A stretch of DNA of 31,088 nucleotides, taken from positions 1 through 31,088 of IMG/VR virus record IMGVR_UViG_3300044637_000676; one strand, written 5' to 3'. Shown here piece by piece: positions 28,661 to 31,088 of this stretch. Position 1 is the stretch's first letter, and every line of letters begins with the position of its first letter. The notes under the pieces were generated by a model that saw nothing but the letters and a program-made list of their open reading frames with translations, ran no database searches and was not told where the DNA came from. Source of the stretch: a virus. The translations under genes were made by a program, and so were the position numbers.

Positions 28661-28819
28661 GTTAAATTCTCACAATGGTAAAACTTATACTGACATATGA
28701 GTTCACATCCTTACACTGAATGTAAAGGTTCTTGGTTCCATGCTAGTGGCTTGCATGTAAAATATTAAGACAGCTATATGATAAGATATTTTCTCTCTCA
28801 CTAATTAAACCCATATTAT

Positions 28820-28945
28820 ATGTCACAAGAAATCAAATTAGTAGGTATGATGCACATACCTGGAGTTAATGATGAAGCATATGCTGCATATATTAACAAC
28901 CTACCTATTGTAGAGAGTAATAACTTATGGTACACTCTTCCTTAA
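28820..28945 (+). CDS. Small hypothetical protein (41 aa)
   Basis: This 41-codon frame begins MSQEIKLVGMMHIPGVNDEA and ends NNLWYTLP. It has balanced, protein-like composition, lies in line with the other plus-strand small genes and has an AT-rich upstream region. Function unknown. Confidence 0.55.
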   Translation: MSQEIKLVGMMHIPGVNDEAYAAYINNLPIVESNNLWYTLP

Positions 28946-28980
28946 AGTTTGTTATTTCTCTTATAGATAATTCTCATAAC

Positions 28981-29096
28981 GGGGGCTTAGGCTCCCACAA
29001 TTTAATGCACCATTTCAGTTTCCCAAGGGCTGACAGATGAGTTGAGGATCAAATGACTACCTACCTCACATTTGAGTGCAGAGGGAATAACATATT
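28981..29096 (+). ncRNA. Structured leader element, copy 2
   Basis: Hairpin GGGGGC/GCTCCC with a TTAG loop (28981-28996) runs into CTCCCACAATT. Then TTCCC/GGGAA (29020-29024, 29083-29087) encloses CAAATG/CATTTG (29050-29055, 29069-29074), followed by AATAACATATT just before the gene at 29112. Together with copy 1 it suggests a duplicated regulatory leader. Confidence 0.5.
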
Positions 29097-29111
29097 AAAA
29101 TTATTTACATT

Positions 29112-29270
29112 ATGAAATTATCAGATTTAATCTTCAACAAGTGTGTAGACTTGTTAGAATGTACAGCAAAGAAACTCAGAATGACATACAATCAAATAAA
29201 TGTATTAGTCTTCTGTATTATATGGCCAATAGTAACACTGCTACTATTATATTATTATGTCACCAACTAA
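29112..29270 (+). CDS. Small membrane protein (52 aa)
   Basis: The first 28 residues are polar with a basic patch (CTAKKLRMTY). One hydrophobic segment follows at about 31-50 (VLVFCIIWPIVTLLLLYYYV), so a single-pass inner-membrane protein is likely, N-terminus inside. It follows leader copy 2 and lies 11 nt before another membrane protein. Confidence 0.6.
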   Translation: MKLSDLIFNKCVDLLECTAKKLRMTYNQINVLVFCIIWPIVTLLLLYYYVTN

Positions 29271-29281
29271 ACTAAACACAT

Positions 29282-29497
29282 ATGAAAACTTTAACTCTTA
29301 CATTTACATTCTTATTTGTACACATGCTTTTATTCACAGCATTGTCTGCTATTGGTTCTATCTTCTCAGGAAGTTTCACCAACATAATAACCAATGGTAA
29401 TTGGTTCTTTATTTATAGCATATTATTCTGTTGTATACCAATTGCTGTAACAGCAGAAGTACATGACATATTAGAAAAAAAACAAAAGTATTATTAA
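29282..29497 (+). CDS. Small two-pass membrane protein (71 aa)
   Basis: Two hydrophobic segments lie at about 7-29 (TFTFLFVHMLLFTALSAIG) and 40-58 (NWFFIYSILFCCIPIAV). A charged tail (ILEKKQKYY) follows. It could act at the host membrane, for instance in superinfection exclusion or lysis control, but nothing specific is recognised. It is the last gene before the 460-nt structured non-coding region. Confidence 0.65.
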   Translation: MKTLTLTFTFLFVHMLLFTALSAIGSIFSGSFTNIITNGNWFFIYSILFCCIPIAVTAEVHDILEKKQKYY

Positions 29498-29499
29498 AC

Positions 29500-29957
29500 T
29501 TATTTCCCGTAAAAGATTCTGCTCTTTGAAATCTTATTGGGGTGGATGTTGATGTCCCAACCAAAATTATCTTCAAGGACGGTCTGTGGAAATATTGTTT
29601 CCCATAATGGTCCATGCTCTCCTTTTATTGCACGTGCAAAATGCTAATAAATAAGACGTGGACCTGGGGAAAGATCTAGAGCTTCAACCTGCTCAACGGT
29701 GGGGAAGGGTAACCAAGCCTTCCAAATTAACAGTAGAAACTCATAGTCTTCTAAGTTTCTTGACAAATACATACACAATGTAATTGAGAGGATTTAACGG
29801 AAGATTAATTCTGATGCACAGTATAGGGCATGGCCAGTCGGCTAGAAGTGCTTAGTTGGCCAACACAGAATTAATAATTGTGTTGTTCCCTTGAGAAAGG
29901 AAACGTAAGAAAGTAGGGAGAAATCCCGTCTTTACAACACAGAGGTTCTCAATCTCA
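29500..29957 (+). ncRNA. Large structured RNA candidate upstream of tRNA-like genes
   Basis: No gene-length frame runs through these 458 nt. Stems seen by eye, left to right: AAGATT/AATCTT (29513, 29530), TTGGG/CCCAA (29537, 29556), GGAAA/TTTCC (29588, 29598), GGTCCATG/CGTGGACC (29609, 29657) enclosing the palindrome TTGCACGTGCAA, GAGC/GCTC (29679, 29691), GGAAGG/CCTTCC (29703, 29718), GAAACT/AGTTTC (29736, 29754) and TACAT/ATGTA (29768, 29778). A closed junction follows. ATTGAGA/TCTCAAT (29783, 29947) encloses ATTAATTCTG/CAGAATTAAT (29804, 29866) and GTGTTGT/ACAACAC (29880, 29934). The second arm holds GAGA and GAAA tetraloop hairpins (29889-29900, 29916-29927). It ends 4 nt before a tRNA-like gene. 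Position recalls GOLLD/ROOL RNAs of phages, but family membership is not shown. Confidence 0.65.
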
Positions 29958-30037
29958 AGTCAGGTGGCGGGATTGGTAGCCGCATTGATGGGCAGTAAAT
30001 CCATTAAAACTTGCAGGTTCGAGTCCTGCCCTGACTG
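29958..30037 (+). tRNA. tRNA-like gene 1 with atypical anticodon arm
   Basis: The 7-bp acceptor stem (AGTCAGG with CCTGACT) is perfect. So are a Leu-like D-arm (GCGG, loop GATTGGTAG, CCGC) and a T-arm (GCAGG, loop TTCGAGT, CCTGC). The anticodon arm is odd: a stem of up to 8 bp (29985-29992 with 30000-30007) and the loop CAGTAAA. By normal numbering this gives anticodon GTA (Tyr) but with A where U33 should be. No CCA is encoded. It is either an unusual tRNA or a tRNA-like signal. Confidence 0.65.
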
Positions 30038-30108
30038 CACTGACTGTGATGTTGGTTGTGTGAGTAACATAACTAAACAGTATGACAGCTTGGAAAGACA
30101 AGCAACAT

Positions 30109-30198
30109 AGTCAGGTGGCAAATGGTGTCACAGCTGCTTCGGGGGCTGTATAACACTCCCTGTAATGGGGAGTACAGGTTCGAATCCTGTCCTGACTA
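30109..30198 (+). tRNA. tRNA-like gene 2, same acceptor stem as gene 1
   Basis: The acceptor stem is again AGTCAGG/CCTGACT and the T-arm is ACAGG, loop TTCGAAT, CCTGT. At 90 nt it has class II size. A likely D-arm is TGGC/GTCA. An arm CAGCT/GGCTG has an 8-nt loop (GCTTCGGG), and a long arm ACTCCC/GGGAGT has the loop TGTAATG. I cannot place a normal anticodon in either. The 70 nt between the two genes shows no gene. Confidence 0.55.
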
Positions 30199-30236
30199 CT
30201 ATTATTCATTAACAATTAAACAAAAACACATTAAAC

Positions 30237-30410
30237 ATGAAAAAATTAATCTATTTCATTTGGCTTGCTCTTGTAGCATCTTTCTCATTCATTTGGTCAT
30301 TCTGTGTAGAACAAGGTAATATAGGAGATGTATTAGTTCTCCTTATTTCTCTACTTACATTGGTTATAACCATAGCATATGGACAATTCACTAACCTTGA
30401 AAAGGAATAA
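30237..30410 (+). CDS. Small two-pass membrane protein (57 aa)
   Basis: It starts MKKLIYFIWLALVASFSFIW, which could be a signal-anchor. A second hydrophobic segment lies at about 31-48 (DVLVLLISLLTLVITIAY) and a short charged tail follows. It has no lipoprotein Cys in the right place. It lies 38 nt after tRNA-like gene 2 and 3 nt before the next small gene. Function unknown. Confidence 0.6.
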   Translation: MKKLIYFIWLALVASFSFIWSFCVEQGNIGDVLVLLISLLTLVITIAYGQFTNLEKE

Positions 30411-30413
30411 GAA

Positions 30414-30596
30414 ATGACTAAATATCTACTAATCCAATGGCCTGAATCTGATAAAGTGTTAGAAATAGCACGGCAGCAAGGCTGGCAGGAAGAATGTTTC
30501 CTTGCCGTTGGCTTGACAGAAAACCAAGACAAGTTCTTAGGTGATCAAGCCTATTTTGTCCCTGTAGGACGATATTCAAATATTGTAAACCAATAA
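30414..30596 (+). CDS. Small conserved-looking soluble protein (60 aa)
   Basis: It starts MTKYLLIQWPESDKVLEIA and contains QGWQEECFLAVG and then GDQAYFVPVGRY. This is a compact alpha/beta arrangement resembling small phage or host proteins of unknown role. It directly follows the membrane-protein gene, so both are co-transcribed. Confidence 0.6.
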   Translation: MTKYLLIQWPESDKVLEIARQQGWQEECFLAVGLTENQDKFLGDQAYFVPVGRYSNIVNQ

Positions 30597-30609
30597 AAAC
30601 CAATCTCTT

Positions 30610-30750
30610 ATGAGAATTAGAAATCTGAAATTCAGAACCTATCAGCAATTTGTAAGCTGGTATAGCACCATTGTCAAAAGATTCAATGACATTAAAGTGG
30701 TGTTCTTAAAGAAATCATTTGACGCATTATATGTGTCATTAAGCTATTAA
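30610..30750 (+). CDS. Small basic protein (46 aa)
   Basis: This 46-codon frame begins MRIRNLKFRTYQQFVSWYST and ends YVSLSY. It is rich in basic and aromatic residues, as in small nucleic-acid-binding or host-takeover peptides. It begins 13 nt after the previous gene. Confidence 0.5.
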   Translation: MRIRNLKFRTYQQFVSWYSTIVKRFNDIKVVFLKKSFDALYVSLSY

Positions 30751-30764
30751 CAGTATTGTTTAAT

Positions 30765-30844
30765 GGTGAATAAGGACTTGGACCGGTTGGACTTCACACA
30801 ACTAGCAGTTTATGGTAATCTCCAAACCATATTTTTTATTCACC
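30765..30844 (+). ncRNA. Closed structured leader before the right-edge gene
   Basis: GGTGAATAA (30765-30773) pairs perfectly with TTATTCACC (30836-30844). It encloses at least one inner hairpin, TATGGT/ACCATA (30811-30816, 30826-30831). It ends 16 nt before the ATG at 30861, a place where a riboswitch-like or protein-bound leader would act. Confidence 0.5.
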
Positions 30845-30860
30845 CAAAAAATTAAATGAC

Positions 30861-31088
30861 ATGCAATCATGCTGGCAAGTATCAGGTAATCAATATAAAC
30901 CTGATGAAAAAAGTTCACAAATTGATATATTACCTCCTGGTATATATACAATACAAAATCACCCTATGTTAGGACTCTATCTAACTAAAACAGGGGAAGA
31001 CTTTAAATTCAACCATAAAATATATGGGGTTGAAAAAGATTTTATAAACCGAGTGACTAAATCATACAGTGTTATGACTGATAACATG
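30861..31088 (+). CDS. N-terminal part of a larger protein (cut by window edge); possible AAA ATPase
   Basis: The frame is open for 76 codons to the right edge. It begins MQSCWQVSGNQY and contains DILPPGIYTIQNHPMLGLYL and KIYGVEKDFINRV. This recalls the segment just before the Walker A loop in AAA ATPases of Bacteroidota phages, but the P-loop itself would lie outside the window. The family call is therefore tentative. Confidence 0.5.
   Translation, partial: MQSCWQVSGNQYKPDEKSSQIDILPPGIYTIQNHPMLGLYLTKTGEDFKFNHKIYGVEKDFINRVTKSYSVMTDNM

Follow-up and report, generated by a model that had tools for sequence, protein, structure and literature searches.

A kissing-loop RNA motif ahead of tRNA-like structures without anticodon arms in a putative phage stable-RNA operon

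The present study describes an array of structured RNAs in a virus contig, of which the whole analysed stretch of 31,088 bp is called here the window. Comparison between phages shows that the non-coding region at 29498-29957 ends in a conserved motif with pairing between its loops (motif K), that the genes which follow belong to a family of tRNA-like structures (TLS) without anticodon arms, and that K stands just ahead of a TLS. We read 29498-30199 as the probable beginning of an operon for stable RNAs in which the phage follows the plan of the rRNA and tRNA operons of the host. We give this reading a probability of about 60%, with processing, stability and function as the parts of it that are presumed from sequence. 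All features below lie on the plus strand unless stated otherwise.

The portal, terminase and major capsid genes of this virus record match head-and-packaging families, and we take the window to be a contig of a crAss-like phage. The structural genes are on the minus strand, and 29498-30199 lies on the plus strand, surrounded by small genes without a known function. A minus-strand ORF (723-1352), flanked by two long tail-fibre-like ORFs, resembles by eye a GIY-YIG homing endonuclease (MRIYMIKNMINNKVYIGQT...). The close relatives of the window are further metagenomic virus contigs, and no isolate with readable annotation is at hand, because BLAST against annotated phages gave only chance or tRNA matches. 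The boxA leaders described below, together with promoter-like sequences of the TATCTTTG type in related arrays, suggest that the hosts are Bacteroidota. Directly upstream of the region in the window, a scan for host-type promoters, using a set that held neither Bacteroidota nor phage promoters, returned promoter-like sites at chance level only.

An earlier note, made from the letters of the DNA, had described the region as free of genes, structured and ending at a tRNA-like gene, and this was right. The sole ORF of at least 50 aa that reaches into 29498-29957 is an implausible 68-aa frame on the opposite strand (29409-29615), and the tRNA-like gene starts at 29958. The predicted fold of 29498-29957 beats 100 of 100 dinucleotide shuffles (z = -3.42; opposite strand, z = -2.09), with z scores of -3.20 for 29498-29676, -2.57 for 29677-29876 and -2.74 for 29877-29957. 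The candidate RNA is real in our judgement, with evidence that is uneven along its length. The note had also seen in it a single ornate RNA candidate of roughly 460 nt. It is structured, but it is not one conserved fold: comparison divides it into three parts (29498-29676, 29677-29876 and 29877-29956), of which only the last 80 nt belong to a widespread family.

The 5' leader module (29498-29676) is 97-98% identical to that of the near relatives L004 and L006, beyond which no homologues were found. Both of its flanks differ in these relatives, that is, the upstream coding end and everything downstream. It includes a helix (29609-29616/29657-29664) in which two substitutions in L006 retain pairing (U.G to U-A and U-A to U.G). 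The middle module (29677-29876) is unique to the window phage, with no homologue found outside the identical contig L003, and it carries the 10-bp stem of the earlier note (29804-29813/29866-29875). L004 and L006 have a different sequence of about 110 nt in place of the middle module and motif K, and a different TLS insert. Cassettes are swapped among near relatives. Since these relatives lack K, it is not essential at the window site.

The last 80 nt (29877-29956) are a copy of motif K, type 1, which itself spans 29879-29956 and forms a three-way junction. Its stem P1 (GUGUUGU/ACAACAC; 29879-29886/29934-29941) surrounds hairpin A (UCC-C-UUGAGAA-A-GGA; stem 29887-29889/29899-29901) and a variable arm hairpin (29910-29933). 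Hairpin B (GAGG-(ac)UUCUCA(u)-CCUC; stem 29942-29945/29953-29956) comes after P1. The hairpin-A loop UUGAGAA is complementary to the hairpin-B loop UUCUCAA, giving seven potential kissing pairs between 29891-29897 and 29946-29952. The window copy thus has all the parts by which K is defined, namely P1, hairpins A and B and complementary loops, and a covariance model built without this copy finds it with 66.1 bits (E 1.1e-10).

This structure changes how some of the stems drawn earlier are to be read. Hairpins capped by GAGA and GAAA are both present in the sequence, but GAGA lies within the 7-nt stretch that pairs with the hairpin-B loop. The loop-loop complementarity and the compensated variants given below favour a kissing partner over a GNRA tetraloop as the reading of loop A. 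Likewise, the 7-bp closing stem over 170 nt (29783-29789/29947-29953) can be drawn in the sequence, but it is seen in the window phage only and shares bases with hairpin B and its loop, both of which are conserved in dozens of other phages. It was set aside because of this competition and is probably not a functional pairing. A closed three-way junction is supported, through P1 around hairpin A and the variable arm rather than through the 170-nt stem.

Comparison of copies shows that K is a conserved structured RNA with loop-loop pairing. Homologue covariation, which the earlier note had named as a check, was found for K; for 29498-29676 and 29677-29876 the only homologues are near-identical contigs. 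Among 14 divergent K copies, seven pairs changed on both sides against a shuffled mean of 2.0 (0 of 500 shuffles reached seven), and 92.8% of cells pair as compared to 40-49% with the partner slid. Most K copies were collected by a pattern that fixes loop A; of the 106 covariance-model hits with canonical loop A, 103 have 5-7 contiguous loop-loop pairs, and at least six such pairs occur in 84% of them versus 9% for shuffled hairpin-B sequence. Scans of viral sequence with loop A left unconstrained gave 0 and 1 hits. Loop A is therefore nearly invariant, and for this reason the rare variants carry weight: UUGAUAA occurs with UUAUCA in L161, UUUGGAA with UUCCAA in L224, and L363 shows a double loop change with compensation and one mismatch left. 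The K counts were taken from covariance-model hits. Those from two structure-descriptor searches were discarded, being mostly false positives and selected on the very pairing under test.

The exact 21-nt K pattern has at least 120 matches in virus contigs, and in 85,000 prokaryote genomes it was found in 2 contigs, both of them metagenome bins. The virus contigs in which K recurs beside TLS number about 100 or more. K is present both where a close crAss-like terminase occurs (the window, L069 and L259) and in large contigs, for example of 170 and 270 kb, in which no such terminase was found. No description of K or of such TLS arrays was found in the open-access literature searched. K may be included, unnamed, among the thousands of candidate structured RNAs from viruses and phages that were catalogued in 2023.

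In 33 of 74 distinct type-1 model hits a TLS or tRNA begins within 12 nt, as compared to 17 of 3700 random positions, and in many copies K ends 1-6 nt ahead of the TLS. Ten of the 74 begin right after the 3' end of a TLS, and 30 have no TLS or tRNA within 130 nt. A second type of K (33 hits) mostly does not adjoin a TLS. K is thus more than a TLS leader, given these 30 type-1 copies and the location of most type-2 copies elsewhere. Type-2 K forms the core of a larger RNA (about 275-560 nt) in which other blocks are conserved too: a AAACAUUGA hairpin with covarying stems, ACAUAAAGAUACUA, and GUGACCCUACUC..GAGGGUGCUAA. This larger RNA matched no Rfam family. It was seen in L174, L242, L274, L281, L303, L314, L334, L354, L355 and others, where a conserved UAAACAUUGA loop is carried by covarying stems and a block GUGACCC..GGGUGCUAA is also present. 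Another recurrent element is a spacer between K and TLS (CUAUUAGUGAACUUCGGUACCC...) in L163, L263, L302 and L357, with variants in L344 and L378; its closing stem varies among phages yet stays paired.

The position of K just before the TLS could be taken to mean that K is a processing element or a self-cleaving ribozyme responsible for cutting the transcript at the 5' end of the TLS, and small ribozymes typically show such nested pairing with a pseudoknot. We regard this as improbable. RNase P would already cut at that place, for 30 of the 74 type-1 copies no TLS or tRNA begins within 130 nt, the type-2 copies almost all lie elsewhere, and no known ribozyme family was matched in Rfam.

The element at the end of the region is not an ordinary tRNA. 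The first TLS (29958-30038) scores 36.7 bits with the Rfam tRNA model and is called tRNA-Ala(ggc) by ARAGORN. The second (30109-30199; 31.5 bits) is called tRNA-Pro(cgg), and two stem-loops replace its normal anticodon arm. Both have the acceptor, D arm and T arm of a tRNA, and the two share their T arm and the acceptor AGTCAGG/CCTGACT. Neither shows, in the sequence or in the fold, a canonical 5-bp anticodon stem with a 7-nt loop and U33. The spacer between them (30039-30108; z -3.68) carries a hairpin GCTTG-GAAAGA-CAAGC (30088-30103), and 23-26-nt matches to it lie ahead of TLS in L191, L259, L172, L284, L198 and others. An identical TLS core is present in L259 (crAss-like), L191 and L241.

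Among the frame-pattern matches listed there are 312 distinct TLS in 181 contigs. Their acceptor and T-arm positions are mostly 94-100% conserved, a value partly imposed by the search pattern, which contained the constant frame; the result for the anticodon arm is not affected by this. A canonical anticodon stem-loop occurs in 18 of the 312 (6%; shuffled, 7.2 +- 2.8), versus 432 of 524 ordinary tRNAs at the same loci (82%), and ARAGORN rejects 215 of the 312. The inserts are hypervariable (241 clusters, 196 of them singletons), and in those that recur 26 pairs are compensatory, as compared to 5.6 when alignment columns are shuffled. Since the frame is constant, the anticodon arm absent and the inserts compensated, the TLS frame appears to be kept without decoding and the inserts to be RNA domains rather than products of decay. 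That the TLS are pseudogenes is ruled out by the compensatory changes. Another explanation would see the region as debris with no working RNA, left by the decay of tRNA genes and by recombination between repeated TLS. The middle module unique to the window phage and the swapping of cassettes between near relatives would fit this. Against it stand the conservation of K across phages with compensatory changes, the nearly invariant frames with structurally constrained inserts, and fold z scores of -2.6 to -4.4, and we consider it very improbable.

With respect to known RNAs, the TLS resemble tRNA (RF00005) and especially tRNA-Leu in the acceptor, the T arm and a tRNA-Leu-like D arm. They mostly have A73 and no encoded CCA, and they differ in the anticodon arm, which is replaced by variable structured inserts. 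They share with tmRNA (RF00023) a tRNA-like domain with a long insert instead of an anticodon arm, and tmRNA genes occur in the same phages. Unlike tmRNA, they have no match to the tmRNA model, another acceptor, no recognised tag frame, and inserts (about 20-120 nt) that vary from copy to copy. In the window no tmRNA match was found with Rfam. L006 carries a phage tmRNA gene (2347-1793, minus strand; 78.9 bits, 555 nt) about 3.3 kb downstream of its TLS with a tag reading ...ETPVALAA-stop, and the equivalent place lies past the right end of the window. L342 and L351 have tmRNAs after type-2 K RNAs. A homologous 95-nt TLS insert (UGUGAGAGUAUGUAUAUGGUG...) was observed in L006 (5830-5685), a crAss-like contig, and in L249 (7829-7685), a 170-kb phage contig. 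This common insert points to the exchange of single cassettes between phages.

Near the start of the leader, at 29520-29531, there is a boxA-like element, TGCTCTTTGAAA, which matches the boxA consensus in a position upstream of the presumed stable-RNA transcript. It resembles the boxA of the E. coli rrn operons, TGCTCTTTAACA. In 18 of 20 sampled Bacteroidia rRNA operons an element like GTTCTTTGAAA (at most 2 mismatches) lies 69-157 nt ahead of 16S. In 230 TLS/K loci the boxA pattern occurred 18 times on the array strand versus 6 on the other, and the reversed pattern 3 times on both strands together, which is a moderate enrichment. In L313 a promoter-like TATCTTTG, a boxA and K follow in direct succession. 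The boxA element and this order support an rRNA-like leader, in which antitermination would be the presumed activity. The window is like a Bacteroidota rRNA operon leader in that a long stable-RNA transcript without translation carries a TG[CT]TCTTTGAAA element close to its beginning, and unlike it in being phage-borne and in leading to K, TLS and tRNAs rather than rRNA.

The stable-RNA operon could work in the following way. The boxA-like element near the 5' end of the transcript would recruit host Nus factors, which would prevent an early stop of RNA polymerase. RNase P would then cut the 5' ends of the TLS, and host tRNA 3'-processing enzymes their 3' ends, so that structured RNA is freed. 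In the window the expected RNase P cut lies between 29957 and 29958, where the acceptor stem AGTCAGG starts, and the product would be a leader RNA, at most about 460 nt long, with its 3' end at 29957. The earlier note had proposed such an RNase P-defined end; the region does end exactly at the TLS start, and the cut itself is presumed from this. The kissing-loop K would close the 3' end of this RNA and could shield it from 3' exonucleases, present it to a partner, or both. The TLS may serve as processing handles and carriers rather than as decoding tRNAs, because the acceptor stem, D arm and T arm are kept while the anticodon arm is exchanged for variable inserts.

The same hypervariable anticodon region within a constant frame would also be expected if the TLS arrays and spacers were counter-defence RNAs, that is, decoys absorbing or evading host tRNA-cutting nucleases or toxins. 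The anticodon region is the usual target of tRNA-cutting nucleases. However, this explanation leaves K without a role, and inserts that are structured and recurrent between phages fit carriers equally well as decoys. We consider it unlikely as a whole, and it is compatible with the TLS half of the stable-RNA-operon explanation.

GOLLD and ROOL are structured non-coding phage RNAs that contain kissing loops and are located close to tRNA islands (PMC12286853). Because of this common setting the window RNA could be a related ornate RNA, forming an RNA cage in which K is a kissing module among others, and type-2 K inside a 275-560-nt RNA with covarying stems would agree with this. The earlier note had offered membership of GOLLD or ROOL, a distant relationship to them or a new class, and had named the GOLLD, ROOL and HEARO models as a check. 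Rfam gave no match to these up to E 10, and a new class agrees with one of the options of the note. On 28800-31088 the GOLLD and ROOL models reached neither the gathering score nor E <= 10. In the window tRNA alone reached threshold, with nothing else meaningful up to E 10, and HEARO, introns and other Rfam families gave no credible match even at E 10. GOLLD, ROOL, OLE and HEARO had no match in the window or in 27 related loci. The window RNA also differs from GOLLD and ROOL in its K core of about 80-130 nt rather than a single fold of 600-800 nt, and in its tie to anticodon-less TLS, and most of the 460 nt is unconserved even in the nearest relatives. A cage of this kind is thus a poor prospect. 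Structured phage RNAs beside tRNA genes are a known kind, and the TLS-array system has a real chance of being categorically new.

A broader proposal goes beyond the stable-RNA operon of the window, and we hold it only tentatively, at odds short of even. Several unrelated phage lineages, probably on Bacteroidota, may share a modular RNA system of a new kind, in which TLS frames display hypervariable inserts and are combined with K modules, rRNA-style antitermination, exchange of cassettes via the constant parts and release by host tRNA processing. In such a system, exchange through the constant parts would turn the array into a set of small RNAs that keeps diversifying. The usual view of tRNA arrays in phages is that they serve as a codon supply, and here most tRNA-like genes with an acceptor of the AGTCAGG type cannot decode normally. 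K and TLS add two searchable RNA families that are missing from Rfam 15. If the TLS are indeed handles and carriers, widespread phages would be making sets of small RNAs by borrowing the rRNA antitermination and the tRNA maturation of their hosts.
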